Positions 8,046 through 64,000 of a stretch of DNA of 64,000 bases are shown here, piece by piece. Each line of letters starts with the position of its first letter. The first letter of the stretch is position 1. Under the pieces are notes generated by a model that was not told the origin of the DNA, made no database searches, and saw only the letters and a program-made list of their open reading frames with translations. Made by a program: the position numbers and the translations under genes. Source of the stretch: Dysidea avara (Eukaryota > Porifera > Demospongiae > Dictyoceratida > Dysideidae); the NCBI RefSeq assembly GCF_963678975.1, contig NC_089274.1, forward strand, positions 48,018,075 through 48,082,074, read 5' to 3'.

Positions 8046-8845
8046 GCAGGAACGGATCTGGGGGGGAGGAGCTTTGGGGGCTGAAGCCCCCCCACTTTTA
8101 CTTAGGCTTTGCTTGATCAGTATGCTAAGATTTACAATGAAATTTTGTCTTAGAATAATTATATGATCACTAATAGTACTCATAAACCCACCTTATAAAC
8201 ATCTTTCCAAGACATTATCAGTGGATTTATGCTAAAGGTTATACAAGGACCCGGATCAGCATTGGAGGTGTACAAGATCGAGATACTCTGATAGAACAGT
8301 CACTTAACCTCTAATAAAACATTCAGTGTAAGCATATTTTTTGGAATTTTTCCAAATCTGCCTGCACCTATACATACAATGAAGTGCATTGGTCTGTTTA
8401 AAAGGTTTGTTCATCTACTTGTGTAGTTATTACCAGTACCAGTACACTTAATTCAGGTACACAATTCCATTGAAAATGCTCTCAGATACAATCTCGTATC
8501 ATTCAAATTTCACAATTTTCCAGTTTCAACATTATTATTCTGTCATGCAAGCAACTGTGAGAGGGTGCATCATGTACTTGGTTGTCTGAACCTACCCAAA
8601 CCTTTCCATTAGCAAATGCTGCAGAGAGCCATATATATAAAGGCAGTATATAAAATATCCACAGGCAGAAATATGCATTTTATGTAGAAATCTCTCCAAA
8701 TTGCAGTATTTTAACATCTATCTTTCAAAACTTTCTTGGGGGGGATGCCAGCATGCTTCGCATTCTGGAAGGTGTGCTTTCACCCAAGAGACTAGTACCT
8801 TGAGTTAGCCCCCCTCCCCTTTTATAAATCCTAGATCCGCCTGAC
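8046..8845. mobile_element. Possible hAT-like or MITE element
   Basis: The left end CAGGAACGGATCTGGGGG and the right end CTAGATCCGCCTG are partly inverted copies. G- and C-tracts lie just inside each end, as in the element at 21,314. The shared TE motif occurs in reverse orientation at 8276-8303. No clean target duplication was found. Confidence 0.35.
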
Positions 8846-9544
8846 ACAGTGCCATTTATTTAGAGATCTGTGGGTAATAACTTCAAGTGTTATAGGTTTT
8901 AGAAGGGTTTACCATACTCAAGTGCTGTAGTACTACAATTGTCTGACTCTTGTTCTTTTAGTTGGTTTTGCTTTTTAAAATTTGCAATAGCTTTAAATGT
9001 GTGAGTGCGCACACAGGGAAATATTGTCTCATGAATTGTAAACTTAACAGTGGGGAGATAATAACAACAGTCTTTCACCCTACTTTAAGCAGTTTTACTC
9101 CCTCTATTAATACATAAAATTAAAGGGTGTAATCAATTAAAATAAGTGAAAGGAAATAATTTAAAATAGAGTAGGGACACCAATAAAAAGTACTGAGAAA
9201 CAAATATCCCAACTCAGCTACATAAATTGAAATGCACAGTTCAGTTTTACAGAGCACCATCCATTATAAGTATTTATGAATGTTAATACCATACAATAAG
9301 GTTGTTTATTTGGGATCATGGAGGTTTGCTCCTCTTCACAAAAAAATATTGACCAGAAATCAGCCTCACAAGTTAGTCAGGGAATATTGTGTTAAAATCT
9401 GGGAATAAATTCCTTAAGGTTTCCACCAATGTGTTTGTAAAGATCTCTACTAACATAATATTATATGAAAAAGTTTAAACTCAACTCCTATGGGGAATCT
9501 GTGACAGTTGCTGGAACATGAGCTACTCAAAACCATATCAGGGA
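8846..9544. other. Non-coding stretch
   Basis: No supported exon. About 9165-9215 (AGTAGGGAC, AAAAAGTACTGA) resembles the repeat at 56.1 kb. About 9330-9390 resembles 35,310-35,400. Confidence 0.35.
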
Positions 9545-10316
9545 AAATTGAAGGGTTGTATACAATCACTGGACTGGACTAGTGGACTGGACTGGTGGAC
9601 TGGACTACTGGACTCAGGTGTTTTCCCTTTTTAAACAAATATTTGGGAAACTGGTTGTAAGTATGTTAGTCTCATGTAGTTAGACCACTCCCCCACACAC
9701 AAAGAAACCCACACACAAACAAAAGAAAGGTGTGATCATGCCAGACTTGTCAACATTGCCCAGTTTCAGCTATGTACAGAGGTTATAATAGTTATTACAC
9801 GTCAACAAATCTAAAACAGAAGTCACATGCGGTAATATAATTTAAAGTTCAAAATGAATCAATTTGATTGGTTGAAATCTTGTGCATGTGATTTCGCTTG
9901 TTATTGCTGTTGTGCAAAAACTATATAGAACCTTTGTATCAGCTATAGAATAACAAGACAATTAACTGTCACCACTTAATTTAGCTGACTCCATGACTAT
10001 AACTTGTAGGATACATGGTTACTACAACACTACATACACATGTACAGTATGGTTTGTACTTCATGATAAGACAAATGGTAGTCGTACAATAGAGATTATG
10101 CCAAGAGAGAGAATTGCACACAATCCTAAGATAACAGACAGTGCCAAGTAGACGGGTTCACCTGCATATTTTACATTCAATGTAGCAATAGCTACAACCA
10201 GTTGTCCAAATATGTGCCAAAATGAAAAAAAACAAAAAAAAACTGAGTCCAGTAGTCCAGTCCACCAGTCCAGTCCACTAGTCCAGTCCAGTGATTGTAT
10301 ACAACCAAATTGAAGC
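9545..10316. repeat. Inverted-repeat element with GGACT-rich arms
   Basis: Arms at about 9545-9665 and 10,190-10,316 are reverse complements. Both carry TTGTATACAATCACTGGACT followed by a short run of GGACTGGACTRGT units, then TTTTT and AACTGGTTGTA. About 525 bases separate them. A 98-codon minus frame (10,061-10,357) with a hydrophobic C-terminal stretch lies partly in the right arm and has no recognisable domain, so it is not called as a gene. Confidence 0.65.
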
Positions 10317-10367
10317 CTAATTTTGCCTTGTGTGGAGTTAAAATATGAATTGTTCATGTTTCTGAAT

Positions 10368-10775
10368 TTTTACCCATGTTTACTCATGTTTACCCGTGTT
10401 TACCCATGTTTACCCATATTTACTCGTGTTTATCCATATTTACCCATGTTTACCTGTGTTTACCCCTGTTTACCATGTGTTTACCCATGTTTATTTATGT
10501 TTACCCGTGTTTACCTGTATTTATCCATGTTTACATGTGTTTACCCATGTTCACCTGTGTTTACCCGTGTTCACCTGTGTTTACCACTGTTTACCCGTGT
10601 TTATCCAAGTTTACATGTGTTTACCCATGTTCACCCGTGTTTACCTGTATTTACCCATGTTTACCCGTGTTCAGATGTGTTTACCCGTGTTTACCTGTGT
10701 TTACCTATGTTTACCCGTGTTTACCCGTGTTTACCCATGTTTACCTGTGTTTACCCATGTTTACCCATGTTTGTG
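10368..10775. repeat. 10-bp minisatellite TTTACCCRTG
   Basis: About 40 tandem copies of TTTACCCATG or TTTACCCGTG, with occasional TTTACCTGTG and TTCACC variants. All three plus frames stay open because the unit contains no stop, which creates false proteins rich in Tyr-Pro-Cys-Leu. Confidence 0.95.
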
Positions 10776-12000
10776 GCTGAACTTTTTAATAAATCGTTAC
10801 AGGATGCTGTTTTACCTTTGGATTGGGCGAGTGCTAATGTGTGACAAGCAGTGTGCTTCTAATTATCACCCCACTAGCTTAACTTGTTTATTAGCTAAAG
10901 TTCTAGAGAGGATTTTTCATTCCAGATTATATCATATGCTTGAACAGAACAATATCTTGTGTGACAATCAATTTGGGTTTCATCAACGTAGATCTACTAC
11001 CTCTCTTTTGTTAACTGCTGTTGATGATTGCATGGGCTAAGATTTTAAACTCACTTCATAGTGTTCATTGTCTGTTTTTGGATTTCACCAAAGCTTTCGA
11101 TTCTGTACCCCATGAGAGACTCCTACTGAAATTACAGCTGTATGGGGTAGGTGGAGCCTTATTGAACTGGTTCAGATGTTTTTTGACTACTCGTAGACAG
11201 TGTGTGATTTTGAATGGTTCATTTTCTTCTTGGCTACCTGTGGTTTCTGGGGTGCCTCAAGGAACTATTCTTGGTCCCCTGCTATTCATTTTGTATCTTA
11301 ATGACTTGGCACAGTTTGTTAAATGTAAGTTCAAGCTTTTTGCTGATGATCTCACATTGTACCATCAGATTATTTCAAATGCTGACTGTTTATATCTGCA
11401 AGAAAATCTATACGCTTTCCTTAAATGGTGCCAAAGGTGGTTAATGCATTTGCAACTTCCAAAGTGTGAAGCTCTTTGTATCTCAAACAAGCATTATCCT
11501 CCTACTTTCACATATCTCTGTGATGGTCAATCCCTTTGGTGGGGTAGTGTGGTGAAATATTTGGGAGTTTACATCAATCAACATTTGACATGGACAGATC
11601 ACCCTAAGTCTGTTTGCAGTTAGGCTACTAAAATTTTGAACCTGCTACGTCATTTGCTATATTGCTGTTCACGAACTGCTAAAAGCCACTCATATTGTGC
11701 TCTTGTTCTTCCGCTAATCCAATATGGCTGTCCAGTTTGGTTGCATGCCTCATTACAGTAAGGACCTCAAACAACTTGCAGAATCGAGCTGCTCGCTGGA
11801 TTTGTGACAGTCACTTTAACCCTTCTACGTTTACATGGTCACCATCATCAGGATCCTGCCTTTCTGAACTTACTTGGCCTTCCATTTACACACAGCTCAT
11901 CACCGTATCATTGTTATTTTTGTATGACTTGATGCATCACCGAACTTCGATTACTTTTGATAATCACTTCAAATTTAATTATAACAACACAAGATCTTAG
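10772..12000 (+). pseudogene. Reverse transcriptase ORF remnant (LINE ORF2)
   Basis: Fragments in different plus frames line up into one RT. FNKSLQDAVLPLDWASANV (about 10,786-10,842) is followed, after a small deletion, by NYHPTSLTCLLAKVLERIF (about 10,861). The block at 11,021-11,623 has FLDFTKAFDSVPHERLL, GVPQGTILGPLLFILYLND and the catalytic FADD (near 11,340). A stop near 11,623 and a shift follow, then YGCPVW and LQNRAARWICDS (about 11,720-11,810). These are RT domains of a jockey/CR1-type element. Known function of the family: target-primed reverse transcription. This copy cannot make the full protein. Confidence 0.85.
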
Positions 12001-12315
12001 TCTAGGACACTTATGACTAAATCATCGGTGATTAATGCATATCATTACTCTTTTTTTGTATATATAGTTTTCTTGTGGAATAAAGTACTAGCTTTTGTAT
12101 GTAATGTAAATTCACGTAAGGCTTTCATTCTGCTGTACTTAATCATTTTGCATGTATCTAACTTCTTGTTTGTTTTTGTTTTTTGCGTTACGTAAATATT
12201 TTTGTAGTTTGTGTTGAGTGTCATTATTATTTGTTTGGGGGTGTTCTTATAGACTCTTTAACCTTTTACTCTCCCCTGCAAATTTTCACAAATTAATAAA
12301 AATCAAAAATCAAAT
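10776..12315 (+). mobile_element. 5'-truncated non-LTR retrotransposon, CR1/jockey-like
   Basis: The LINE begins abruptly at the end of the minisatellite and ends with an A-rich tail of AAAAATCAAAAATCAAATCA type near 12,298-12,315. It lacks the endonuclease region and the start of the RT domain. Several frameshifts show that it is dead. The short tandem 3' tail fits the CR1/L2/jockey group better than the poly(A)-tailed L1 group. Confidence 0.75.
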
Positions 12316-12335
12316 CAACTTTATACAGGGTGACT

Positions 12336-13814
12336 GAATCGCTAGAGCAATTTATTTGTAGCTGCATGGTGACTGTTCTATTAAAGTATCTCGGCAGCTG
12401 AATGCTCTATTAGGTTGACTGTTCTAGAGTATCTCAATCTTGCTTTTGCTGCACACAGTTCGCTTTCGAATCATAACTAAGTGGTTTGTATTCCGATTCG
12501 TCTGTACTACTGCAAGAACTTTGTATGATGATTATTCCAGCTACATATCTATTTTCAACTCATTGCTCTAGGTGGTTTGCCTGGTAGGCGTAAACACTAA
12601 TAATTTTTTTAATTCATAAAATTCGATCGCGTAATTGTGACACATGTTGGGTTCTGTGTTATATCTCCATGATCTTTATCTCTACTTCTTTCAAACCACA
12701 AAAAGGCACTCCATGTTAATAGCAAATTTCAGCTCATTCCTCCAAGGAGTTTACCCTGTGGGCGTGACAGAAGTTCGACCTTATTTTACATGAATAATTT
12801 TACGATAAACGGACAAGCAGAAAAGGTACTGAAACATATACACATCACATAATTAGCTAGCTATTCAGGTTCCAAACTGCTAATCAGAATAATTATGTCA
12901 TGTCTCAATGAATGATCAGTCATGTCTCCGCGAATAATCAATCATGTCTCCGTGAATGTTCATCGGATTCCTACCAAATTTGGTAATAAGATCCGCTTTA
13001 ATAAGCCCTTTAAGTGTGCCAAAGTTCAGCCCGATTGGAACACACATTGGTGCTTTATGGCATGCAGATTTTGCAAGTGTGCGAAAAGTAGAAGAAAAAA
13101 ACCGAAGAAATTAAAACACTTGTGGTTTTTGAGGGCAGTGGCAAAGTGCCTTTTGATGTAACGGTTTTTCACCCAAACGCACAGAGCTACTGCAATACAT
13201 CAATACCATCTGTCTATAGACGCCACGTTAGCTTCTTTAACTCCATTGGTTTTCGCAACAACTAGGGGCATGAGAAAGAAAGCAATCACATTTTATCGCC
13301 GGCTTGCTTAGCTCCTCTCAAAACGAAGTACCTTATCTTACAGCAGCATGTTAGCATGGCTTCGCTGCACCCTATCTTTTTCTCTATTGCGATCAGTGAC
13401 CATGGGGAAGCCACTCCATATGCTGCAGATCATTAGATGCTTCCCCAGAAATGGGCCTAATGAGTGGTCCTAGGGACACTTAGTTGTCCCTTTTTCAGCG
13501 TTCTTTAAAAGTATATCTATTATTGTTGTTGTCTTTATTATGTTATTGGTCATTTATGCTAAAAATTTTAAAACAAATTAGAACAAAATTTTGGCCACTC
13601 GTATCTTGGAAATGTCTGGAACAATTTTTTTCAAATTTTGTATGTAGATTTCCCATCCTGGCCGGCACTTCTGTAGCAAATTTGGTTCCAATCGGATAAG
13701 GAATCACAAAGCTACATATGTGTGAAAATCGTGTTTTCTTTCTTCCTGTCAATATACTCATGGTGTGGCGCGCTGGATTCTTGGGCTGCACGACACACTA
13801 CCATGTGTCTTGAT
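12336..13814 (+). mobile_element. Tail part of the composite satellite element, split by a LINE fragment
   Basis: Matches the conserved tails at 43,390-44,231 and 50,925-51,763 in the same order: shared TE motif copies (12,369-12,440), GGTTTGCCTGGTAGGCGT, TTCAAACCACAAAA, TTTACCCTGTGGGCGTGAC, GCAAGTGTGCGAAAAG, TTCCTGTCAATATACTCA, and the terminal hairpin ending GTGTCTTGAT at 13,814. It lacks the palindromic head and satellite array. About 440 unrelated bases (13,129-13,570) interrupt it. Confidence 0.7.
13129..13570 (+). pseudogene. 3' fragment of the 21.6-kb-type LINE nested in the composite tail
   Basis: The translated pieces FHPNA(Q)SYCNTSIPSVYRRH, a shifted piece corresponding to LVFATT and FYRRLA, and the end MGLMS-like region correspond to the last about 110 residues of the ORF at 21,689-23,176. 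Internal deletions and stops are present. It is a 5'-truncated, decayed copy in plus orientation. Its insertion splits an otherwise continuous composite tail. Confidence 0.7.
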
Positions 13815-16184: not shown

Positions 16185-16236
16185 TACATACAGTTCACAA
16201 TTACAATGGTGAACAATATTAATGGTTAACAATATA

Positions 16237-17535: not shown

Positions 17536-17717
17536 GATCGAGATACTCTAATAGAACAGTCACATTTCTACAAGTGCCATATTTTTATATTGTAAAGTCT
17601 GTAAGTAGCTAGTAATTTAAACCAATCTGATGCTAAGCAGAAGTTGTAACTATGCTAAATATTGATTGCTGCGTTACAGCTGTTTTGTGACTGCTCTAAT
17701 AGAGTATCTTGATCGTT
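17536..17717. repeat. Inverted pair of the shared TE motif
   Basis: A reverse copy (GATCGAGATACTCTAATAGA at 17,536) and a forward copy (CTCTAATAGAGTATCTTGAT at about 17,696) face each other about 150 bases apart. The motif thus forms both ends of a small block with no other recognisable terminus. Confidence 0.6.
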
Positions 17718-17805: not shown

Positions 17806-18009
17806 CAGGGCCGTCCAGAGAAATTAGAGAGCCCAGGGAAAAGCGTTAAAGAGGGGCCCAGGGGCAAGGAAGAGTCTAGATCCTGACTGCTCTATTAGAG
17901 TATATCAATCTTTCTTTAAACAGGTATTCAAGGGGCCCCTTTCGGGCTGGGGCAGGGGGGAAATACCCCAGTTACCCCCCCCCCCCCCCCCCCCATGTGG
18001 GTGGCCCTG
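17806..18009. mobile_element. hAT-type MITE with 8-bp target duplication
   Basis: The ends are CAGGGCCGTCC and GGGTGGCCCTG (inverted). The flanking 8 bases GCCACTAA are identical at 17,798-17,805 and 18,010-18,017. It is 204 bases, non-coding, and contains a long C tract and a copy of the shared TE motif (17,884-17,911). Terminal CAGGG and an 8-bp duplication are hAT hallmarks. Confidence 0.85.
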
Positions 18010-18130: not shown

Positions 18131-18763
18131 AAATCCCATCCAAAAACAGCTTATAGCTGTAAAAAAAGTGCGCGTCCAAGTAAAGCAGAGTTAACTGCGA
18201 CAAAAAGTAATGATATCATAATGCGGCCATGTGCGAGGTGTGCAAGTTGTAAAATTAATATTAGCTAATCAGATAATACAATGTTATTGTTAAAGTGTTA
18301 ATGAGAACTATGTGATGCTGCTACTTTTAAGTGTGTGAGCATCTTCATAAATGCCACACATTTAATTCTCAATAAAGCCAATGTGTATAGATTCTCTGAT
18401 AGCAATAAATAGTTTGAGTTTGGCCACCTTTCCTTTGTTCATAGCATTGCCGTATACAGTAAAGACGGCCAAACTCAAACTATTTATTGCTATCAGAGAA
18501 TCTATACACATTGCTTTATTGAGAATTAAATTTGTGTGGCATTTATGAAGATGCTCACACACTTAAAAGTAGCAGCATCACATAGTTCTCATTAACACTT
18601 TAACAATCACATTGTATTATCTGATTAGCTAATATTAATTTTACAACTTGCACACCTCGCACATGGCCGCATTATGATATCATTACTTCTTGTCGCAGTT
18701 AACTCTGCTTTACTTGGACGCGCACTTTTTTTACAGCTATAAGCTGTTTTTGGATGGGATATA
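18131..18763. repeat. Long foldback element, about 290-bp arms
   Basis: 18,131-18,424 and 18,467-18,763 are near-perfect reverse complements around a loop of about 42 bases. The outer ends (TCCAAAAACAGCTTATAGCT, then GTAAAAAAAGTGCGCG) closely resemble the outer ends of the palindromic heads at 39,043 and 48,286, so they belong to one superfamily. It is non-coding, and the low arm divergence suggests a recent or homogenised copy. Confidence 0.9.
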
Positions 18764-18769
18764 TTTTAC

Positions 18770-21145: not shown

Positions 21146-21500
21146 CGTGTGGTTAGCAATGGAATGCAGCTGAAGTTTTCTCTACATCATGTTTCTCTAC
21201 ATCATGGCCTTCAACATGCTGTCATACGTACAGGACTGTTGATCTCAAACATTGTGTTGAAGGGTATATATGCACCCTACTACAGTTGTATGATATCTAT
21301 GTATACTGCAACTCAGCGGCGGAGGAAATAGTTGATATGAGGGGGGGGGCTGGGCTGACCCAGACTTATTTCTATAGTTTGGTAAGGTGAAGCCAAAAAA
21401 AAAAAAAAAAAAAGGTCACAACCAACTGACAAGAGCTTTCCACCTCACCAGCTACCATTTATAGACTACATAAAAATCCTTTCATAACTCGCTACACACT

Positions 21501-21545
21501 GACTACTTTATTAGAGTGACTGCTCTATTAGAGTATCTCGATCTT
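21501..21545 (+). repeat. Shared TE motif, representative double copy
   Basis: Core CTCTATTAGAGTATCTCGAT, often preceded by GTGACTG and a degenerate half copy (CTTTATTAGAGTGACTG). CTCTATTAGAG is itself a palindrome. Other copies: 8276-8303 (reverse), 12,369-12,394, 12,404-12,440, 17,536-17,563 (reverse), 17,689-17,717, 17,884-17,911, 25,935-25,984, 43,403-43,443, 44,701-44,723 (reverse), 47,756-47,806 (both), 47,884-47,930 (reverse), 50,929-50,973, 63,424-63,469 and 63,948-64,000. Confidence 0.85.
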
Positions 21546-23255: not shown

Positions 23256-23742
23256 GGCCTTGTATACATAGCATCAATGTATACAAGGCCATGCGCTGTC
23301 TCAGTAACAATAAGGACTCTATGTAATTTGAATAAAGATAATTTAGTAAAATATTTCTAATAGAGCAGTCAGAAATTAAATATTCATGCTACTCTTGTCT
23401 CTAATACAGCAGCTCCTTGCCATCTAAAATTTTCTAGATCCTCTTTGTCTTAATGCCTACAAGATCCTAGTATAAGAATTCTAGGCATTTATTTTGCATG
23501 CACCATTTTTCTGTTGTGAACTATATATACTGTAACCTGATGTACTGTACAAACCTTGGACATGCTCTTACTGGCTCTTAATGCACACATTATTTCATAC
23601 ACGTATAATGGCAAGTTTGGCACATACATACCTTGTAGCAAGTTTACATGTAATAGTTGTATATATAACCTTTTTTGTAATATAGCAGTACTGTTAACAT
23701 TTACTGTGTGTAAGTATAATACAGTAATTATCTGCATTATAG
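23256..23742. other. Non-coding stretch, probable intron
   Basis: No exon recognised. It precedes the acceptor of the exon at 23,743. Confidence 0.35.
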
Positions 23743-24254: not shown

Positions 24255-27200
24255 CTACTTTGGTAAATAAGTGTTCTGGAGGTCAGTGAAGATGTGACTG
24301 CTTGTATCAAGGGATGCTCCCAATGTTGTAAACATTTCTTCTGAATCTTTCAGTGTTGCCCTGCTAGGTAGTAATGTCCTGTCTGATTTCTGTAGTGCCC
24401 TTGATATTTCACTTGGATGTACACGTTGGCTGGCTACCGGATTCCTACATTATAACAAACTGCTGAATAAAGAAAGACTAGTATGATGCCAAAAACTTTA
24501 GCATAGAATTTGATGGTGTTTAAAGTAATCAAACAAAATTGATGTATTCACCCAAGCAAATATGCAACAGAATACAAATATAATTTTGAGCTAAAGCTTA
24601 GTGTGCATTTCTGTGCAAAACAATCTACATATGTGACCAGATTTGTAAAAAGGGATTTTTCACACACATCCTATTTATCAAACTTTGACAACTTATAACT
24701 TCAGCTGAGAAGAAGTTATTGACTTGAAGTTTGGTTGGTAGTGAGCTCCAACATAGCCTAATGGATGGAGCTGTTGTTTGCACACTCTGTTAGTTTATAA
24801 AATTTGATGTGTGTGGAAAACGCCTTTTCACAAATCCGGTCACATATATAGTAATTTAATTTTAAGTGGCAGCATGAATTTTGTATAAACCTACCCTCTG
24901 TCTCTCACATCTCACTCTCTCTCTGTATATATAGTTACATACTCCTGCTCCCTATACTACCCTATAGCTATTACTTTGGTAGTGAGAGAACAGTAAAAAT
25001 TGCAGCACCAAAAAAGTTCAGAGTTAGAGAAACAAAATTTGAAGCTAAAAAAGTTTACTAAACCAAAACACCAGACGATCAAGGAATCAAAAGCTCTCGC
25101 TCTGACTACTTATATGTCACACACAATTTAGAAATTAGTGAAACCTGCTTATAAAGGCATGCGTAAGTTGCCATAGGTATTTACCTGTGGTTTTGTAATT
25201 TTCTTTGATTTCTGCACAGTAATAAAATTAATAATAAGCCAGGTGATGAGTGCTTCATTTATAACACAAAAATACTCAATATATGTGGTAGCCAGCAAAA
25301 TAACTGTCTCATGTCATGGAATGTAGGTGATTGGATGACTTTTCAGCTTTATTTATATACTTACCAACACTGAATCATCAACTGATACATGGCTCTAGGA
25401 CATCCAGGAGGTGGTGAGAGTCTGTATCCATTAGTGATCTTTGTCAAATACTACACAGAACAAATGAATTATAATGTACACAATGTTCCATTACATCATG
25501 CATGTACGTACCTCCTTTCCATCACAGTCCTCAAATGGCTTGTGACCCAAACTCCATATCTCATACATTACACATCCAAAACTCCACACATCACTTTGAG
25601 TAGTGTATTTCTTGTAAAATATTGCCTACAAAACGTTTCGACAGTAAAAAAAAACATTCATGTATAGCTAATACATGCTATAAAGCATATGTGAAGCTAT
25701 ATTCACACATGAGTTCCTAAACTACTGTATGCATGGAGCCCATGACTACCATTAAGGCAGACTTCACATTGGCGGTTCCAGGATTTTTGGTGACTGGTTA
25801 GTTAGCTAGATTTTTGGGTGAAGACCAAAAAAATAAAAAGGTCGCCACCTGCTGAGAATAACTACCCTCCACTAACTATATAAAATATCACTTATAAAGT
25901 GCATAAAGATTGCTACACTGCTACTCTGAATACTGTGACTGCTTTATTAGAGTGATTGACTGCTCTATTAGAGTATCTTGATCTAAACGTAACTGGTTTC
26001 CAGAACCCCCCCCCCCCCTCCCCTGGAGCCCCCCTACTTCATGTAAGGTTAGTAAAAGATTCTGGTTGAGCACACACTGATACGATGTTAATGCTTAACT
26101 TAGAAGAGATACTCTAAGGGTAGAATGGCTAGATACAACAAAAGCTGTCAGTATACCCTCCACAGCTATATTCAATGTCAAAACTAACGTAGAAGACCAT
26201 GGGTAGCGATAGATGAAGGTCATTGCCAGTAGTTACTCTCACAATCAAAAGGTGGTGGATTTGCACAATTATAAAACAATAGTAGACCTCACAATAGCTT
26301 TCCATTGTATATAAACTCATACAGCTGGTTAAGAATTTGTACCTCTATTTACATACACCTGTACATACAAATACTGTGACAGTATCAATGTGCTCACTTC
26401 GGGTGCAGTCCATTTTAATGGTATCTTTCCTCCACTGGACATATAGTAAGTGTCATCAGACACATCACGTGCCATCCCAAAGTCAGCAATCTGATTGAAA
26501 GTATTTAACAAGTCAAGTGTAGTGGTATGCGGCTTCAACACACCTTACACACATCATCACTTGATACTAGTATATTCCTAGCAGCCAGGTCTCTGTGTAC
26601 AAACTTTTTACCAGCCAGATAGCAGAGACCTGCAGCTATATGTCTGCAGAAGCTTAATAGGTCATGTCTTAACTCATCATAAGCTTCAGGAGGTGTCCTA
26701 CATCATGTCATAAATATTAAGCATTACATCATTATGTTGACTTACGCATTTTTCAATTCAGATAAAAATTCATGGAGATCTCCTTTAGGCATATATTCCA
26801 ATACAATCATCGTGTTCTCCTTTTCAGTCACCACTCCATACAACTCCACTATGTGGTTGTCCTTGAACTGGCCCATAATGGCTGCCTCTCTCAGAAATTT
26901 CACCTTGTCAGATGCTGTACACTGTGTATTGAGTATCTTCACAGCTACTTGCTTGGGATCTGTAGAACCATCAACCCATGTGCCTAAATGAACTACTCCA
27001 AATTCACCAGATCCAAGTGTTAGGACAATCCTGTAAAAATATGCCTACATGTGCAGCAACAACAGTTTGGTGGCTACTACAACTACGTAGCTACACAAGT
27101 ATTAAATATGTACTACTGCACTTCACAAATATTATAAATACAGTTTAAAACTTACTTTATATCATCTGATTTAATAGTTTGAAACATCTTCCTTTCAAAA

Positions 27201-32006: not shown

Positions 32007-32008
32007 AC

Positions 32009-47618: not shown

Positions 47619-47841
47619 CTGTTGTTTTGAATTTAGCTTTTTATTATTACTGTGTTGAATCTGTTTTACAGCAGTATGCATGCATGCAATAATATCTAGT
47701 ATAGCTATTAATCCCCCAGCAACACTTTACTTTTCACCTCCCACCACATTAAAACGATCAAGATACTCTAATAGAACAGTCAAGTAACTACTCTATTAGA
47801 GTAATCAAGCTGAAAACTTTTGCCTATTATATTATTCATTT

Positions 47842-48112
47842 CAGGAGCGGCTCCAGGGGAGTTTCTGAGGTTTATGGAACCAGTCGATATATTCTAATAG
47901 TGCAGTCAATCACTCTAATAAAGTAGTCACAGTATTCAGAGCACCAGTGTAGCAAGCTATGTAACTAAATAAGGATTTTATGTACTTTATCAGTGATATT
48001 AATTAGTAGAGGGCAGTTATTCTCAACAGGCAGTTGCTTTTTTTTTGTCTTCACCAAAAATCTAGCTATGCTTTTGATTAGAAACCAGTCATCAAAAATC
48101 CTGGAGCTACTT
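47842..48112 (-). mobile_element. MITE related to the one at 25,767, reverse orientation
   Basis: Starts CAGGAGCGGCTCCAGG and ends TCCTGGAGCTACTT. The flanks ATTCATTT and ATGCATTT agree at 7 of 8 bases, consistent with a hAT-type 8-bp duplication. It carries the shared TE motif (47,884-47,930). Confidence 0.55.
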
Positions 48113-48285: not shown

Positions 48286-51200
48286 TCTAATCCAAAACAG
48301 CCAAGCTGTAAAAAAAAGTGTGCGGCCCTCAAAAAGGCTATGATGAAAAAAGATGTGAAATCCAAGGTGGTGGCCAAGAAATGGCTGTGATGGTAGGTTA
48401 ATGGTAAAAATTTTAATAACAACAATTCAGGTTAATTTGGTGCCGCTTGGTCTTGGCACAAAATTCACCTGAATTGTCATTATTAAACTTTTTACCATTA
48501 ACCTACCATCACAGCCATTTCTTGGCCGCCACCTTGGATTTCACATCATTTTTCATCATAGCCTTTTTGAGAGCCGCACATTTTTTTTACAGCTTGGCTG
48601 TTTTGGATTAGATTTCATTTCTTTTTGTATTTGTATACCCCAAAGCCGGCCTATGGCCGGCTTTGGGACTTTTTTAACCTACTTTTTTTTCTTTACCACA
48701 GGAAGAAGAAAAGGTGAAGTAGATGTGCTTTAAATATTTTATCAATAAATGTACAAATTATATATATAATACATATATTGATTACAGAAATCTCCATGGT
48801 GGTTTCTTTGTAACTGAACACTCTACAAGGTGACTTCTTCTAGATGCTCTCTCTACAGGGTGAATCGTTTGTAGCTGAATGATCTACAAGGTAACTTCTT
48901 CTAGCTGATCTCCCTACAGGGTGATTTGTTTGTAGCTGAATTCTGTACAGGTGATTTGTTTGCAGCTGAGCTCTTTACAGAATGATTTCTTTGTAGCTGA
49001 ACTCTCTACAAGGTAACTTCTTCTAACTGATCTTTCTACATGGCAATTTGTTTGTGGCTGAATTTTCTACAGGGTGATTTCTTTGCAGCTGAACTCTCTA
49101 CATGGTGGTTTCTTTGTAGCTGAACTCTCTACAAGGTAACTTCTTCTAGCTGATCTCTCTACAGGGTATATTTGTTTGTAGCTGAATGATTTACAAGGTA
49201 ACTTCTTCTAGCTGATCTCTCTACAGGGTGATTTGTTTGTAGCTGAACGATCTACAAGGTAACTTCTTCTAGCTGATCTCTCTACAGGGTGATTTGTTCG
49301 TAGCTGAATTCTGTACAGGTGATTTGTTTGCAGCTGAGCTCTTTACAGAATGGTTTCTTTGTAGCTGAACTCTCTAAAAGGTAACTTCTTCTAACTGATC
49401 TTTCTACGGGGCAATTTGTTTGTGGCTGAATTTTCTACAGGGTGATTTCTTTGCAGCTAAACTCTCTACATGGTGGTTTCTTTGTAGCTGAACTCTCGAC
49501 AAGGTAATTTCTTCTCTCTACAGGGTGATTTATTGGTAGCTGAATTCTGTACAGGTGATTTGTTTGCAGCTGAGCCCTTTACAGAATGGTTTCTTTGTAG
49601 CTGAACTCTCTACAAGGTAACTTTTCTAGTTGATGTCTCTACAAGGTCACTAGTTTGTAGCTGAACTCTCTACATGGTGGTTTCTTTGTAACTAAACTTT
49701 CTACAAGGTGACTTCTTCTAGCTGATCTTTCTACAGGGTGATTTGTTTGTAGCTGAACTCTCTACAAAGTAACTTCTTCTAGCTGATCTCTCTACAGGGA
49801 GATTTGTTTGTAGCTGAACTCTCTACAGGTGATTTGTTTGAAGCTGAACTCTCTAAAATGATGGTTTCTTTGTAGCTGAACTCTCTACAAGGTAACTTCT
49901 TCTAGCTGATGTCTCTACAAGGTCACTAGTTTGTAGCTGAGCTCTCTACATGGTGGTTTCTTTATAACTGAACTCTCTACAATGTAACTTCTTCTAGCTG
50001 ATCTCTCTACAGGGTGATTTGTTCGTAGCTGAATTCTGTACAGGTGATTTATTTGCAGCTGAGTTCTTTACCAAATGGTTTCTTTGTAGCTGAACTCTCT
50101 ACAGGGTAACTTCTTCTAACTGATCTTTCTACAGGGTGATTTGTTTGTAGCTGAACTATCTACAAGGTAATTTCTTCTAGCTGATTTCTCTACAGGGTGA
50201 TATATTTGTAGCTGAATTCTGTACAGGTGATTTGTTTGAAGCTGAGCCCTTTACAGAATGGTTTCTTTGTAGCTGAACTCTCTTCAAGGTAACTTTTCTA
50301 GCTGATGTCTCTGCAAGGTCACTAGCCTGTAGCTGAACTCTCTACATGGTGGTTTCTTTGTAACTGAACTTTCTACAAGGTGACTTCTTCTAGCTGATCT
50401 TTCTACAGGGTGATTTGTTTGAAGCTGAACTCTCTACAAGGAAACTTCTTCTAGCTGATCTCTCTACAGGGAGATTTGTTTGTAGCTGAACTCTCTACAG
50501 GTGATTTGTTTGCAGGTGAACTCTCTACATGATGGTTTCTTTGTAGCTGAACTCTCTACAAGGTAACTTCTGATAGCTGATCTATCTACAGGGAGATTTA
50601 TTTGTAGCTGAACTCTCTACATGATGGTTTCTTTGTAGCTGAACTCTCTACAAGGTAACTTCTTCTATTGATCTCTCTACAGGGCAATTTATTTGTAGCT
50701 GAACTCTCTACATGGTGGTTTCTTTGTAGCTGAACTCTACAAGGTGATTTCTTCTAGCTGAACTATCTCTTTCAATAGTTGCATGAACTCCCTACAAGGT
50801 AACTTCTTCTAGCTGATCTCTCTACAGGGTGAATTGTTTGTAGCTGATCTCTCTACAGGGTGACTTGTTTGTAACTGATCTCTAAACAGGTTCCTTGTTT
50901 GTAGCTGATCTCTTGAATTCTCTTCAGGGTGACTGCTCTATTAGGATGACTGCTCTACTAGAGTATCTCGATCTCGCACTTGCTGCACCAAGTTGGATTT
51001 CGTGTTATAACTCCGTGACTTTAAGTCTGATTCTTCTACACCATTGATGAGCCTTACTAAGATGATTACTTCATCTGTACAAAGATTTTCAAAGCATTAC
51101 CCTAAGTGGTTTGTCTGGTAGGCGTGGCAAGCAGTAGTTTTTTATTAGCTAATCTCGATTGCATAATTGTTACACACTGTTGGTTTTTTCGTTGTATTTT

Positions 51201-51763
51201 CCTGGTTTTTAGCTCGATTTCTTTCAAACCACAAAAGGTTTCAGGTTCAATAGTTAACCTAGTCACCCACCGATTTTCAGCTTCTTCCCATACGCGGTTT
51301 ACCCTGTAGGCGTGACAACATATTGGTGTTATTTTTCGTGAATAATCGCTCATAACTCTTTGCCTGTTTATCGTATTCCAGCCAAAGTTGGTACAGAGAT
51401 GCGCCTTTATACCCCCCTTCTGTGTGCCAAATTTCAAGGCGATCGGATATGGAGTTCGCGTTTTATAGCAGTTTTTGTAAGTGTGCGAAAAGAGGAAGAA
51501 AAATAAGAAGAAAAAAAACGAAGAAACTAAGCCAATTTTTGAAGTCGCATATCTCGGGAACGCTTGAAGCGATTTCGCTCAAATTTGGAATGTGGAGTAC
51601 TGAAGGTGGAGGGAGTGTCCACAGCAAAAATCGTCTTGTTTCATCAAGGCAGCACAGAGCTACAGAGGTGCGAAAATTGCATTTTCGTTCTTCCTGTCAA
51701 TATACTCACGGGTGTTACGCGCCGGCTTCTTGGGCCGCACGACACACTACCGTGTGTCTTGAT
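48286..51763 (+). mobile_element. Composite satellite element, copy 2 (3.5 kb)
   Basis: The same three parts as copy 1: palindromic head (48,286-48,613, then AAGCCGGCCTATGGCCGGCT), satellite array (about 48,786-50,925) and conserved tail (50,925-51,763) ending GTGTGTCTTGAT. The arrays differ in length (about 2.1 against 3.8 kb), while head and tail remain similar. It lies upstream of the known gene D exons on that gene's strand, so it may be in an intron. Confidence 0.7.
48786..50925 (+). repeat. Satellite array of copy 2, about 70 units
   Basis: The same unit as at 39.6 kb, with a prominent alternation of GGTAACTTCTTCTAGCTGAT and GGGTGATTTGTTTGTAGCTG. A longer period of several units is visible (49,160-49,600 resembles 48,900-49,150). 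Confidence 0.95.
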
Positions 51764-56800: not shown

Positions 56801-59800
56801 ATTGCAATACAGAGATTTTCCTGAAAATGTGTTTTATCAGGTTTTGTTGGTACCAAAATCCTTATCCTTATTTAGGTGAAGTGAGTCTCTAATCCACAAA
56901 GTTGTTAAGAGAAATTGTGACTGGATTTTGAAAAATCAGCCTTAATGCCACATTTTCCAACTCAAATATTTATGATGAAAATAAAGCTACCAATCAGCCT
57001 TACAGTGATTAGAAACATTAGTCAGTATCCTGAATTACACAACCAATTCCGTGAAACAGTTTACAGATACATATGTGCTTAGCAAAGTGTAGATTTGTAC
57101 ACATGACATTAAGACTGAATTTCCAAATCTAGTCACAGCTTTTGCAACGTATTTCTAAATGTAACATATGTTCCACATCACACTATAAAGACAAGAACAT
57201 GCACATCTGTCAGGAAATACCACAATGTTACTTAGACTATTGTAATACATGATGAACCATTAATGGAGCAAGTTTATAAGCCTTTAGTCCATCTAAAGCT
57301 TAACTTGTTCATAAGGTGTTTACAGTTGTAATAAAACCAACGTGACAGTGTCTTACATGAATTTGATTGAGAAACAGCACCACCTGCTGTTGAAGTGTTA
57401 ACCATAACTGATGACAAAGTGGTAGCCATAACTGGTGTAGAAGTGGTAGTCATAACTGGTGTTGAAGTGGTAGTCATAACTGGTGTTGAAGTAGTAGTCA
57501 TATCTGGTGTTGAAGTGGTAGCCATAACTGGTGTTGAAGTGGTAGTCATAATTGATGTTGAAGTGGTAGCCATAACTGGTGATGAAGTGGTAGTCATAAC
57601 TGGTAATGAAGTGGTAGCCATAACTGGTGTTGAAGTGGTAGCCATAACTGGTGTTGAAGTGATAGCCATAACTGGTGTTGAAGTGGTAGTCATAATTGAT
57701 GTTGAAGTGGTAGCCATAACTGGTGATGAAGTGGTAGTCATAACTGGTAATGAAGTGGTAGCCATAACTGGTGTTGAAGTGGTAGCCATAACTGGTGTTG
57801 AAGTGATAGCCATAACTGGTGTTGATGTAGTAGTCATATCTGGTGTTGAAGTGGTAGCCATAACTGGTGTTGAAGTGGTAGTCATAATTGATGTTGAAGT
57901 GGTAGCCATAACTGGTGATGAAGTGGTAGTCATAACTGGTAATGAAGTGGTAGCCATAACTGGTGTTGAAGTGGTAGCCATAACTGGTGTTGAAGTGATA
58001 GCCATAACTGGTGTTGAAGTGGTAGCCATAACTGGTGTTGAAGTGGTAGTCATAATTGATGTTGAAGTGGTAGCCATAACTGGTGATGAAGTGGTAGTCA
58101 TAACTGGTAATGAAGTGGTAGCCATAACTGGTGTTGAAGTGGTAGCCATAACTGGTGTTGAAGTGATAGCCATAACTGGTGTTGAAGTGGTAGCCATCAC
58201 TGGTGATGAAGTGGTAGTCATAATTGATGTTGAAGTGGTAGTCATAACTGGTGATGAAGTGGTAGCCATAATTGATGTTGAAGTGGTAGTCATAACTGGT
58301 GTTGAAGTGGTAGCCATAACTGGTATTGAAGTGGTAGCCATAAATGGTGTTGAAGTGGTAGACATAATTGGTGTCAAAATGGTAGACATTGTTGTTGACA
58401 AAGTGGTAGTCATAGCCGGAGTTGAACTGAAAGATGGAACTAAGAGAGTGCATGATTACACAGTGACAACAAATCATTACTGATTTTACATATACACATA
58501 CTTCAGATAATCTACATTTGTACAGGAAATAGCATGAGCTGCAGTGAAATTTGTCATATGTACATGATGAGTGTTTTAATGGAAACTTACAATTTTCATG
58601 ATATTTATCACTGCTACATCCATGCATGTTAATACCATATAGGGTACTGTACACATAGTCTATATGTAGAAAACTATGGAGTCAATACGTGTACCTATTA
58701 GGATGGTACATAGATGATACAAGGAGCATCTGTGTATAAATAAGGAAATTGAACTTTTATAACCTGGTTTAAAATAATTTTAAACAAAGTACTAAAACAA
58801 GAAATCATCAATAATATATTAGACTTTTAATTCCTTATTCACAGTGAAAAACTAATGTGGCTAAAGTTGGGATTAACTCCCTTCATTCCAGTGTAATGAC
58901 CCCTATTTGGTTATAAATTTTGTTCGTAAAGATACATAAATAGTAGCCGCAAATGAATTGAAAAGGAGTTGTCAGAAAAAACTCAAGAGCAGTTACCTGA
59001 CAAATTACCATTTGAAGGATTTTCAAAGTGCAGTTATCAACAACACATTTGGAGAGCTACACTAAAGCAAACAATACTATTTTGTACATCAGCTCTTCAT
59101 AGCTGTATCTACAGGCTCTTTTGTATGGTAATTAGTGCAATACTATAGATCCATAGGTGTAGCAACAGAGAAGCTATGAGGGCTACAGTCCTTTTGAAAG
59201 GGGGCTTACCCCTCCACTTTATAAGATTGAGATTCTCTAATACAGCATCAGCTACTCTTAGCAGTCGTGTACTCAAAGATACGTACCTTTTCAAAATATT
59301 CAGTCAAAATTGCTACCAAATTGAAGTGTAGGCAATAGACCTCACTAAGTGGACAGTAAAGTCAAAGCACACAGTCACATTCTGTTGCTACACCAGTGCT
59401 ATTGTAATAGCACGGAAAATACTCTGACATTGTTTACACAAAGTTTGTTGCATGGTTAGGCCTAGAAATTAGTGGATTCTATATATCACAAAAACAGCCA
59501 ATATGTGGGGAAAGGTGTGCCTTCACTATTTTAAAAAAGCTGTAAAATCAAAGATACATCAATGAAACATTTTTGACCACATTAACCCAGGTGCTTTGAA
59601 GGCCACATCCTTTTCACAGTTTAGTTGGATTTCATTTCCTTTTGTATTTTATATGGCTCCAAAGCCAGCCATAGGCCAGCTTTAGGACCCACATTTCGTT
59701 TCATCTGCGGACACGATGATGGCTATCGAAAACAAAAGTTACAATTGCATATCTTATTGTTAACTAGAATTGGTACCTGTCCTACATGCAGGACAATTTT

Positions 59801-62437
59801 AGATTCCATACCAACCACAATAACATAATTCAATGGATTAGGGAAATGAAGCATTTAATATCAGCCCTAAAGCTATGTGATATGCATGGTGATGTAACTT
59901 TTCCTGCACTGATGTGAATATGGTTGGTTAACTAACTGCATGTAAGGTAAACATGTACAAACTATATGGTGCTATAGTACTACTTGTCCTACCATGCAGG
60001 CACATGTAATATGTGTGGCTTCAGTTTCTAATAGTAAAAAGAAATAAATTTGTATATTAATTGGCTAAGGCCGTCACTATTTGCAGAAGCATTACTGCAA
60101 GCACTGCATGGCTTGAGTAAAATAAAATAACACACATGTGCATGCTTTCTGGCACCTAGGTTAACTTTTTGTTATGTATAGTTTGTATGATTGAGAAGGC
60201 ACTTATTCTAAAAGAGCACACAGGACAGATAAACCAACATGTATCCAATTGGCTTGACCGTGCCTGTCCTATACCTCTCAAATGTGCTATACACGCTTGT
60301 GTTTACTTGCAGTTTGCATGCAAGTTTGCTCTACTAACATGCTGTAAACGACGAATGACTACAGTTAGAAGCTTCATTTAAAAATGATATAATTCTTAGA
60401 TGATGAGCACTCTGTTTGGCACAAACCTCACTTCAATACGTGCATTGGGTGGCGAAAGATTGTTGGATTCCAGGATGATCAGATGGACAGACGACATTTT
60501 AGCTTTATATATAGATAATAGGCCATGAGAAATTAATTATATTATATATTTTTTTTTGCTGAATGAATTTATTATTTATTTATTAATTTATAATGCTTTT
60601 TGATGCAGGAGAACCTACATCAAAGGCCTGTGGGCAACCTGTGCCCACAGCCAGAAATGTACAGCTATACATTAATTAACTACATTACAATTACTTTTTA
60701 CTTAACTATGTAGAGTAACTATGTACTTATTACTAGTTTGCAGATCAGTGTCAATAATTAAAGCGGGAAAAAATTGGTAGAGACTGGTTGCCTTGAGCAT
60801 CGGTAGCATGGACACATAAGAGATGAAATGAACAGGATTGATCAGAGTTGAAGTTATCCGTAAAAAGGTCCCATAGAAATTTTTATAAGTTTTTGTTTGA
60901 TGACATAAGGTGGTGAGTGGTGAATTGCACAACCACCATACAATAATTTATAATATTTAATATCTGCAAAAGTTTTCATGGCTTGTACGCACTCTTTTCT
61001 TATAAAGATGCACTAACTTCTTACCTAACTCTATAATTCCATGTACTTCTTTGTCAAATGTAGTGTACCACATCAAAAAGTTGCAAAAAAAACAAACAAA
61101 CCTGGTCACCTGGATAATTTTGGGGAATTTGTAAGACCAGAACCATATAAATTTGCACGGCCTTATATTACTCTAATATAACACACATTTTAGAGGGCTT
61201 TTAATGCAATGCACATAGATATCCATTGGTAGATCTATGAAGTATTAGATAGATTAAATCTAGAACCTCCAATTTTAAGGTGGAAATTAAGTGAGGCAAA
61301 CAGCTCAGTGGTGAAAGGTTTGATGTTAGGTGTGGAGGTCCCTGGTTTGAACCCTTGATAGCTTTTTTTGATGCACTTATATTGCCATGGTCTTATGGTA
61401 TCTCAGCTCCATAATCTTACCTGTTTCACTTGTTTTAAACCACAAAAGTACTGCACAACGTAAGACGGTTCCCATAAGCAGTTTGCTCTGTAGCCTTGAC
61501 AGAAAATTAAGCTTTTTATGTAAACAATCTTACATTACATTATAAGCATACATCGGATCAGCTTCAAGCTTGGTATGTGAATTCATCTTCATGCACAGAA
61601 AACATGCAGGTAGCATGGAAAGCACATTCAGCTAGAATTAAGATTTCAATTTCTATTTGTTGGTTAGGAGCAACTATTTACAGATAACTTTCAAACAATG
61701 TTTTTCAAACTGATGTGACACTACTCAATTGCAGTTACTATTGAAAGAGCAGCATTTAACCAGGGACATACGGTATAATACATATAAGTACGTAAAATAT
61801 ACACACAGGATTTAACAACAAGGTCAAGTAACTTACCAAGGTGTACTCTAATAGCAATGTTGTAGTTAACATCATTAGTACTTCTACCAACAACACTGTT
61901 TTGATTACCAGTAACTTGATAAGTTGTTATTTGACTGTTATCAGTAGTATGTAATAACAGTACATTAATGCTAGAATACAATCCCACAACTGATCCTGAT
62001 GGTGCAGTGAACTGTTCTGTTACTGGGAGGGTGTAGTTCTGACATGAAAATATACTAGTACCATTAGGAGTAAATGTGACTGTGTTTGATTGGATGAGTG
62101 AATAAGTAGTGCCTCCAGTCCTCTCCCAAATACCAGGATTAAATGTCACTGATGGTACACCTAGTAACTGATAACAGAACTCCCAGGTAGTCACAATTCC
62201 TTCACACTGAACTGTATATCCAGTTAGTATGTATGTTTGACCTTGATCAATAACAGCTGCCCCAGTCTGAAACACTGATCCAACAGTATCAGGAGCTGTA
62301 CACACTTGACCACTCACTGCTGCTGTAATGTACACCACAACAGTAATCAACTTGTAGTAGTTATAATACTTACCAGACATTAACACTATGTAAATAGCTA
62401 CAATCCTGATACAAGTAGTTGCTATTAAAATAAGCAC
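53893..62437 (-). CDS. Receptor-like protein without kinase (gene B): ectodomain, mucin stalk, TM, NPxY tail
   Basis: Exons identified, 5' to 3': end of the signal-peptide exon (62,374 to about 62,437), ectodomain 61837-62319, stalk 57357-58426, TM plus tail 53893-54326. The stalk exon ends in phase 1 and joins the tail exon perfectly (donor TTCAT/GTAAGA). The ectodomain exon ends in phase 1 while the stalk exon begins in phase 2, so one small exon between 58,427 and 61,836 is still missing. No in-frame ATG precedes the signal sequence, so the first exon is incomplete. The ectodomain is clearly paralogous to gene A ([30 protein letters not shown]). The tail is paralogous to gene C (TNPSYVPISVGDNVLDDNPS). 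It has one NPAY and three NPSY motifs and DYVV but no kinase. A surface receptor acting through PTB adaptors or endocytosis is inferred. Confidence 0.72.
54327..57356. other. Intron of gene B
   Basis: No exon recognised. It holds a direct duplication of about 130 bases (55,619-55,755 and 55,758-55,880; shared phrase CACCCAAAAACCAGCCTCAA) and the hairpin repeat at 56,034-56,666. Confidence 0.45.
56034..56666. repeat. Tandem pair of long hairpins, 282-bp period
   Basis: ATAGATGGGGCGCAGCACCA begins each unit (56,034 and 56,316). Unit 1 contains a 123-base hairpin (56,193-56,315). Unit 2 contains the longer version (56,406-56,666, arms about 120-125 bases). Unit 1 stops exactly inside the right arm, where unit 2 begins. 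Confidence 0.9.
57400..58400 (-). repeat. 24-bp coding repeats with 168-bp higher-order unit, gene B stalk
   Basis: About 40 octads ([32 protein letters not shown] and variants). Seven octads form a 56-residue super-unit repeated about four times. The composition suggests dense O-glycosylation. Two minus frames and one plus frame are open over more than 1 kb; phase and homology to gene A select the Thr/Ser frame. Confidence 0.9.
60545..60660 (-). pseudogene. 3' end of a LINE ORF (fragment)
   Basis: On the minus strand the frame reads CPQAFDVGSPASKSIINL and then an AATAAATAAATAATAAA-like tail. This wording matches the common extreme C terminus of animal CR1/jockey LINE proteins from general knowledge of the family. 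Nothing upstream is convincingly coding. Confidence 0.4.
61300..61570 (+). repeat. tRNA-headed SINE-like element sharing the composite tail body
   Basis: Box A AGCTCAGTGGTGAAAGG (61,302), box B GGTTTGAACCC (61,344) and a T7 run (61,363). The following 200 bases contain TTTTAAACCACAAAAGTACT, CAGTTTGCTCTGTAGCCTTG and CATCGGATCAGCTTCAAGCT, diverged versions of the body seen at 43.6-43.9 kb. Confidence 0.5.
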
Positions 62438-63205
62438 ATAACTTTTATAACAATAGTTGTAAATGTAGTAAATGAGATAGCATAATAACAGGGTTGTATA
62501 TAACAGATGAAAATTTTAAACAAGTAACTAATGTTATGTACCATAACAGTTCCATGGATTAAAACTGGATGAATTAGACTTGTAGTTTTTTTACAAATAA
62601 TAGTAAAAAATTGGTACAGTGAAATGTACTTGCACTTCACTTAAGTGCTCCCTTGATTTCAGCTAGAATATTTGTACTTGTTTATTTATTAGCTTTACAG
62701 CATCTGTTTGTAAATCACAGTCAAATGGTATGCATGCTGAAGACATGCCAGCAACTGGAGCTGGCATCCAGAGGTAATTAATTACAGTCACATCACTAGA
62801 AATTATTAAAATTAGTGGGAATGGTTCACTGGAACAGCAGTAGAATGGGCCCACAGAATGTGACATGTGCAGGTTCCATCAGAATAAAAATTGTTAGCAA
62901 AGTGATTCCACAAGTACCCAAATAATTGGTGTTTGATTGTGTTGGTAACTAATAAGTACTTTTAAATGAGTACTTTTAAACATAGATGATGGTGGGAGCA
63001 AACACCACACACACCTGTTAGCTGAAGGAGAGCATTATCTAGAAAAAGAGCATAATTTGGAGTAACAACATATGCGCAGCAAGTAACATGCAGTCAGTCA
63101 ATAGGTAATCACGTTATTTAATTTTCCCCTGTTTACTGTACCTGAAGCCTCAGACGTTTTGGTTGTGATCGTTAGTTCCATGTCAAGTATCCAAACTTCC
63201 ATCAT
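62438..63205. other. 5' region of gene B, start exon not identified
   Basis: No in-frame start was found for the signal-peptide exon. A possible minus frame near 63,130-63,200 starting MEVWILDMELTITTKTSEAS before a GTACAG donor is too weak to call. Confidence 0.3.
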
Positions 63206-63570
63206 CAGGGGCGGAGGAAGTAGTTGATATGAGGGGGGGCTGAGCTGACCCAGATTTATGGAAATGAGGCACTACATTGTCTCTGGTTTGGTAAGGTGAG
63301 ACCAAAAAAAAAACAAAGGTCACAGCCAGCTTACAATAGCTGCCCACCTCACCAGCTACGCATTTATAGTTGATAAACTACATAAAAATCCTTACATAGC
63401 TCACTACACACTACTCTAATACTGTGACTGCTTTATTAGAGTGACTGCTCTATTAGAGTATCTCAGTCTTTATCACAGTTTTCAGCCCCACTCCAAGGAT
63501 CATTTCAGTGTGATATCATTCTGAGGAAGGCTTCAGCCCCCTAGACCCCCCCCCCTTTCCACCACCTATG
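63206..63570. mobile_element. hAT-like MITE, empty sister of the 21.3-kb element
   Basis: Starts CAGGGGCGGAGGAAGTAG, ends TTTCCACCACCTATG. The flanks TCCATCAT and GCCATCAT agree at 7 of 8 bases. The interior matches 21,314-21,565 and 23,190-23,247 without the LINE, and includes the shared TE motif at 63,424-63,469. Confidence 0.8.
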
Positions 63571-63886
63571 GCCATCATCACCAGTCCTGACACACTCTAC
63601 TGCTATTTTACAGCTAAGTGCCTCTGGCCATAGTAAACCTTGTTCAGAGTCTTCAGACACAACTATTTAGCTCACCTCTATGACAATTAGTACTCATAGT
63701 AATTATAGCTGCTTGGTTGCTAGGTCACAATATTCAACCAGAAGAATCTGACCTTATAATATAATTACTAAATCCTTACAAGCTAATATTATAATGATTG
63801 TAAGGATTTAGTACTCTTACCCAAAAAAGAAGGTTTGGTGATACGATGCTAAGTCAAAATCTTCCATACCTATCATAGTTATCATA

Positions 63887-64000
63887 CAGTGGATCCTCAC
63901 TAATCTGAACTCCAGTAATCTGAACACTTGCTAATTCGAATAGAAGAAATGACTGTTCTATTAGGGCATTTTGGGAATAAGTGTATTTTCTATTAGAGTA
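63887..64000 (+). mobile_element. pogo-like MITE, cut by the window end
   Basis: TA, then CAGTGGATCCTCACTAATCT, the same end as the element at 44,559. The shared TE motif (TGACTGTTCTATTAG) follows at 63,948 and continues to the edge. Confidence 0.7.

Follow-up and report, generated by a model that had tools for sequence, protein, structure and literature searches.

A stretch of 64,000 nucleotides from the sponge Dysidea avara (assembly GCF_963678975.1, contig NC_089274.1, positions 48,018,075 to 48,082,074 of the forward strand), hereafter the window, holds transposon-like elements of several kinds that carry one and the same short motif. The motif unit is made up of a 19-bp core, TGACTGYTCTATTAGAGTA, and a looser 8-bp 3' extension, TCTCGATC, which is often, not always, found directly 3' of the core. 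The unit measures about 19-27 bp altogether and is present in both orientations. The original prediction, made from the window itself, was that the motif recurs at about 15 sites in otherwise unrelated transposon families. Our analysis confirms this recurrence and finds it more extensive, with 28 units detected by a position matrix in the window and 101,329 copies of the core across the genome.

Results

The abundance of the motif is far above what its composition predicts. In the window a 20-bp version of the core gives 11 matches at up to 3 mismatches against 0.02 expected. In the genome of 550.8 Mb the 20-mer has 51,287 matches at up to 2 mismatches and its reversed pattern 19, while an 18-bp core at up to one mismatch has 101,329 copies, about one per 5.4 kb, and its reversed pattern none. 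The position matrix was trained on the window, on 200 kb taken at preset positions (loci L009-L028) and on eight loci selected by the motif (L001-L008). In these 288 kb it detects 107 units at a score of 14 or more, and the reversed matrix yields none at 11 or more. Units scoring at least 11 number 28 in the window and 53 in the 200 kb, and at a score of at least 14 the window holds 17 clusters. Shuffles and reversed patterns serve throughout as controls for composition, not for evolution. An information profile built from one member of each of 35 contexts climbs above 1 bit at the first base of TGACTG and declines beyond base 27, and outside this motif of about 27 bp no aligned position exceeds 0.31 bit. 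The unit as first described needs a correction: its conserved part begins at TGACTG, and on the 3' side the partner TCTCGATC is looser than the core. The central palindrome, which had been taken to point to a dimeric DNA-binding protein, is a weak sign of one, with TGACTG on one flank only and palindrome arms that vary unequally. Collections of prokaryote genomes and of viral contigs contain no exact match to the motif.

Each carrier site that had been named does hold the motif (8276, 12370, 17536/17688, 17884, 21500-21517, 25936-25957, 43399-43416, 44664-44696, 47756-47903, 50930-50947, 63425-63442 and 63950). Many of these lie in high-copy transposon families, including hAT-like and pogo-like miniature inverted-repeat transposable elements (MITEs). 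Doublets occur in three hAT-like families, F22, F24 and F33, which are named by their ends. A unit at 8276-8302 (minus strand) lies in a non-autonomous F33 element at about 8047-8841. Two hAT-like MITEs of family F22, one from about 21314 and the other at about 63206-63577, hold plus-strand head-to-tail doublets with a spacing of 17, at 21500-21543 and 63425-63468. The hAT-like MITE from 25767 has a doublet with a spacing of 21 at 25936-25983 (plus strand), and its relative at 47842-48105 has one with the same spacing at 47882-47929 (minus strand). Just before the latter element lie two minus-strand units with a spacing of 25 (47756-47811), whose palindromic core is also read on the other strand at 47785-47811. 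A further hAT-like MITE, at 17806-18009 (plus strand), has GCCACTAA on both sides and a unit at 17884-17910 (plus strand), with relatives at L118-L121 and L123. The other hAT-like carriers are so classed by their CAGGGGCGG-type ends. In L121:1-701 one motif copy is split by a 174-bp insertion between GAGTA and TATCGATC.

The 17806 element is nested in a repeated block in which a left unit at 17536-17562 (minus strand) and a right unit at 17688-17714 (plus strand, with an A in the palindrome centre) form an inverted pair with their TGACTG edges facing. This pair had been described as isolated, a description that no longer stands: the 17884 unit lies in the same block, for which at least about 20 relatives are listed. 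A single unit at 23345-23371 (minus strand) finds only itself among the matches listed for its flanks. Three minus-strand units are weak, namely 59225-59251, which is doubtful with core mismatches at 6 of 18 positions, 60196-60222 with 4 of 18, and 61161-61187, which has the lowest score with 3 of 18.

The pogo-like MITE at 44559-44785 (minus strand) has the terminal inverted repeat CAGTGGATCCTCACTAATCCGAAC and TA on both sides, and holds two minus-strand units with a spacing of 32 (44664-44722). A second pogo-like MITE starts at 63887 and is cut by the end of the window, which leaves one unit and the start of another (63950-64000, plus strand). For the family of the 44559 element, about 229 bp long, 44 matches were listed from the best 40 of 1,480 candidates, and 20 of them were examined together with the window copy. 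That pogo-like MITEs with TA targets carry the motif is upheld for this family: TA stands on both sides in 19 of the 21 copies, and all 21 have a unit at 0-1 mismatch, in a search whose query contained the motif and in which motif-less copies would score lower.

As had also been claimed, the composite elements carry at least two units between array and tail. Plus-strand doublets with a spacing of 17 occupy this place in composite elements A (43399-43442) and B (50930-50973), and two plus-strand units (12370-12425) lie ahead of the tail in composite element C. In the composites at 39564-44231 and 48791-51763 a conserved tail comes after long tandem arrays of a 31-bp monomer, and the first of these elements ends near GACACACTACCGTGTGTC, a hairpin-like end that, in our view, recalls Helitron-type elements. 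We rejected the idea that these arrays are an expanded form of the motif, as the monomer does not outscore its shuffles, 41% of which reach its score. Elsewhere, at L017:5434-5952, seven motifs follow each other at an exact 82-bp period, separated by two alternating 55-bp spacers that are equal at 20 of 55 positions. It is the single array here that bears on whether divergent satellite monomers have the motif in common. With its two unlike spacers of equal length the L017 array resembles a higher-order satellite repeat.

To count unlike carriers we used a sample not chosen by the motif, 264 kb consisting of the window and the 200 kb at preset positions; the window carries the original finding and hence is itself no random sample. 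The sample holds 55 clusters, 17 from the window and 38 from L009-L028, 7 of the 38 being the single array in L017. Clusters were merged when their 130-bp flanks were alike on either side, a rule by which distant kinship may be missed. The 55 clusters fall, depending on the cut-off, into 29, 30 or 32 contexts without a common flank on either side. A further 60 clusters from L001-L008 and L029-L068, picked by exact motif matches on contig C1, bring the total to 115 clusters in 35 contexts; in this larger set single linkage lumps the hAT-like carriers with the L007/L017 group. The context counts are conservative, because the hAT-like group was merged, with other families, into one context. We also listed every complex 12-mer that occurs 10 times or more in the 264 kb; there are 656, or 328 when reverse complements are joined. 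Of these 328, 20 are found in at least 5 unlike contexts, and each of the 20 belongs to the motif. The carriers, in agreement with the original prediction, differ in their ends and target duplications and have only the short motif in common. The flanks are repetitive at 22 of the 55 clusters against 27% of random places, a weak difference in a small sample.

Within the hAT-like group the picture is less simple. Among the matches listed for family F24, the copies L040, L059, L049 and L002 agree over their terminal 51 bp at 98-100% with L009:9459-9948, a hAT-like element that lacks the motif, and the copies L008 and L068 do so at 97.7-97.8% over 44-45 bp. In the copy of L040 (C1:3086720-3087720) the right 51 bp are 100% identical to that element. 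Judged from these alignments, the right end of F24 seems to have been exchanged with a motif-less hAT-like element.

The arrangement of the units is variable. Exact head-to-tail doublets with 0-30 bp between the cores number 4,496 genome-wide. Inverted pairs with the TGACTG edges facing are found at 1,062 places and those with the other edges facing at 4, each place being counted once; all these are counts of family copies and not of independent events. Over the 35 contexts the doublet spacings are 17 (6 contexts), 20 (1), 21 (5), 25 (2), 27 (2), 28, 29 and 31 (1 each), 32 (2) and 36 (1).

If the unit inserted itself, flank duplications and clean empty sites would be the marks to look for. Direct repeats around the unit in the 35 contexts do not exceed in length those obtained with random placement. 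Searches with joined flanks covered 18 contexts, 11 of which have relatives beyond themselves among the matches listed. None of the relatives examined has its flanks joined exactly at the motif edges, and most keep at least part of the 5' side. The shorter relatives L109, L116 and L115 retain the 5' part of the motif and lack 20, 13 and 8 bp, respectively, beyond it; in L132 and L133, 55 bp are gone after the first core; the stretch missing from L134 lies outside the motif and that missing from L135 begins at its 3' edge. The exceptions are L120, which lacks 5 bp within the 5' part, and L122, in which 12 bp spanning the 5' edge of a unit are gone. These breakpoints say little about breakage rates, because the relatives were mostly chosen for odd length. 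As for the check proposed with the original prediction, that empty sites lack the motif, no examined relative from the 11 contexts is cleanly without it. One listed candidate, C5:3255264-3255341, is still unread; in it 13 bases align across the joint without a gap, which may represent an empty or a rearranged site. It belongs to C5:3254979-3255341, a relative of L026:6345 whose right flank aligns again about 220 bases further on. Six contexts were listed with themselves alone among the matches listed, and L020:2228 was absent even from its own listing. Such a result does not establish low copy number, because the composite at L010:4440 was also listed alone. As the genome search scored only the best candidates, the copy numbers drawn from it are lower bounds.

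Several other features were seen along the way. The context of L016:2027 has at least 19 listed copies, itself included, within C2:16.1-19.7 Mb, as in an expanded cluster, and the same region has many hAT-dimer domain matches. Long inverted repeats that are 93-99% complementary lie at 18133-18760, 39040-39367 and 48311-48588, and no motif unit was found in them. Two similar reading frames of 24-bp tandem repeats, at 27882-28988 and 57274-58455, encode a threonine-rich mucin-like stretch, and the first of them has, by eye, a likely membrane segment near its end.

Discussion

The finding of this study is that a word of 19-27 bp with sharp edges recurs about 100,000 times in a sponge genome, inside carriers that are otherwise unlike. 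We tentatively propose, with a confidence a little short of an even chance, that one host protein with sequence-specific DNA binding recognises the motif as its long target site, and that many unlike non-autonomous elements have acquired this site. Among the options raised in the original prediction, a captured host protein site appears to be the best. We propose such a putative site because of its sharp edges, its two orientations, its clusters of variable spacing and its looser 3' part in unlike founders, because the core has 101,329 copies and its reversed pattern none, because the 12-mers common to at least 5 contexts are all words of the motif, because the information profile spans about 27 bp, and because the unit is present at 0-1 mismatch in every examined copy of the pogo-like family. 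Under this proposal the site would have been captured by chance in each family, perhaps as short filler during break repair, and founders holding it would have amplified better and reached high copy number, for example if the bound protein kept chromatin open or drove transcription where transposases act. Slippage or unequal exchange could then have doubled the units locally, and the site may be used singly or in head-to-tail clusters. Also in favor of the proposal are TATA-like boxes, found 36 bp past the cluster in L002 (hAT group), 40-42 bp past it in L016:1662 and, in the pogo-like MITE, 8 bp past the second unit.

Other observations weigh against a host protein site. Over all contexts the TATA-like boxes show no clear enrichment, with 13 outward and 8 inward against about 9 expected each. 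A site of 27 bp is long for most single transcription factors. The two units do not stand out by their conservation within the pogo-like family, where 25% and 48% of all 20-bp windows vary as little as they do or less. No special constraint is thus seen on copies of this family once inserted, which places the likeness between families in their founders. The motif is also absent from the 5' regions of all 20 hAT elements with open frames that we read (at least 590 amino acids without stops, from the best 150 of 1,875 candidates), where nothing better than 5 mismatches was found. This absence is not decisive, because 15 of 140 random pieces of equal length contain a unit at up to 3 mismatches, so that about 2 of 20 would be expected by chance. 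Similarly, none of five pogo elements with open transposase frames, drawn from the best 150 of 835 candidates, has the motif, the best match having 4 mismatches. Four of these five showed a start that resembles the MITE inverted repeat at up to 9 mismatches, and for those four we read all or part of the stretch from this start to the coding frame; the fifth showed no such start.

The rival that we take most seriously, even if we consider it rather unlikely, has no protein partner of its own for the motif. Its abundant copies would provide homology for recombination or template switching and in this way shuffle modules at their junctions, an idea modelled on the conserved boxes proposed for nematode satellites in the part of that work used here (PMC3694981). 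In its favor, the right flank of L025:4877 matches L110-L114 from the first T of TGACTG onwards while the left flanks are unlike. The number of units varies at one site, from 2 to 4 in L110-L114 when a degenerate first unit is counted, and L122 has 2 units where other copies of the same place have 1. The unlike spacers that alternate between motifs at 82 bp in L017 agree with the same idea. Among alignments of at least 90 bp, with composite arrays excluded and families counting repeatedly, 223 of 366 end at a motif cluster, compared with 2,663 of 5,738 for random places (mean per motif site 0.578, 77 sites), and the loss of alignment is commoner on the TGACTG side (166 vs 57). However, this apparent excess is modest and perhaps comes from few families, and recombination among motif copies creates no new flanks that hold the motif alone. 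We do not claim a hotspot of indels or breakage from the 13 of 37 indels that touch the motif, since several relatives were picked for odd lengths and the count is biased. The exchange of parts is also central to another explanation, common descent, by which all carriers would come from one old element whose ends and interiors were swapped until the motif was its last conserved part. Left-half stretches of F22, F24, the 25767 and 47842 elements and L022:7025, some of them short and including the motif, are 70-92% identical while their right ends differ; the terminal 44-51 bp of F24 match a motif-less element at 97.7-100%; and two pogo-like families with different ends have interiors that seem alike, by eye only. 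The original prediction had held that common descent does not explain the motif, and had named one ancestor with swapped ends as the case that would refute it. Such swapping does apply inside the hAT-like group, but it does not extend across the 29-32 unlike contexts left among the 55 clusters not chosen by the motif, the 17 of the window included, for which descent of whole elements cannot account. As no 12-mer outside the motif is common to at least 5 contexts either, we consider common descent improbable.

Two further explanations make the unit itself the active part. A tiny self-spreading insert, in which the 27-bp unit would be mobile and copied by an unknown enzyme or by RNA-templated repair, would fit the sharp 5' edge and looser 3' end, the many unlike contexts and the single units whose contexts have no place but their own among the matches listed. 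This option of the original prediction finds no support, because target-site duplications around the unit are at chance level over the 35 contexts and no clean empty site is confirmed, the one candidate being unread, and we regard it as highly improbable. About as improbable, and the least probable of the explanations considered, is that the unit is the source or target of an abundant piRNA-like RNA directed at many elements. The length of 27 nt and the leading T resemble a piRNA, and the better conservation of the 5' part than of the 3' part can be counted in its favor. On the other side, Rfam reports nothing at gathering scores in the window, and elements should lose rather than gain a target for small RNAs. 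Going beyond a host protein site, one could view the word of 19-27 bp itself as the unit of selection, with about 100,000 copies and with transposons of unlike superfamilies and tandem arrays as its vehicles, which at present we find unlikely. If it were so, we would know of no smaller cis module, selfish or maintained by the host, in any animal.

Dispersal of motifs by mobile elements is already known, and it is the breadth and number observed here that we rate as unusual. Our searches of open-licence papers turned up neither this word nor one like it that is common to hAT-like elements, pogo-like elements and arrays, and a search with the letters of the motif gave no match on transposons or sponges, judged by titles. 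Bacterial REP and DNA uptake sequences are likewise very short words that occur densely and in unlike surroundings, but they are bacterial and have known mobilising or uptake machinery. The best-documented parallel, as far as the sections of the source used here describe it, appears to be the m1m2 motif pairs of the Caenorhabditis CERP2/CELE2 MITEs, which are bound by HIM-17 (PMC9757741). These are also short motif pairs in MITEs, variable in orientation and spacing and dispersed by elements. They comprise some thousands of pairs in two related MITE families, with many copies in closed chromatin (PMC9757741), whereas the sponge motif has about 100,000 units in about 30 unlike contexts, hAT-like, pogo-like, composite and array, and a protein that we infer. 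In Meloidogyne, CENP-B box-like motifs are common to divergent satellites and lie at monomer junctions, as described in the portions consulted (PMC3694981, PMC9673304). There too a short box is kept among otherwise divergent repeats, but those are satellites, whereas many of our carriers are dispersed transposons. A CENP-B box proper was rejected, since the motif matches 7 of 17 positions of the consensus and shuffles average 8.2. Brassicaceae MITEs have captured and amplified E2F-binding sites, according to the part of a review drawn on here (PMC13317346), a host factor site multiplied by MITEs just as we putatively propose. That case differs in having a known factor in MITEs, whereas ours would concern a 19-27-bp word across several carrier kinds and a putative factor. 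The oyster Cg_HINE Helentron elements carry satellite-like arrays (PMC7492417) and, in the excerpts used, share with our composites the layout of flanks around a central tandem array and its modular reuse. There it is arrays and flanks that are shared and not one short word, and here the 31-bp arrays are unrelated to the motif.

What the motif means for Dysidea avara depends on which explanation is right. Should the word spread by itself or through recombination, the minimum size of a spreading DNA unit in animals would have to be lowered. Should a host protein bind it, a single protein would touch up to about 100,000 places in this genome and may have shaped which transposon families succeed, and the question why unlike non-autonomous elements have a cis sequence in common would become directly testable in a simple animal.

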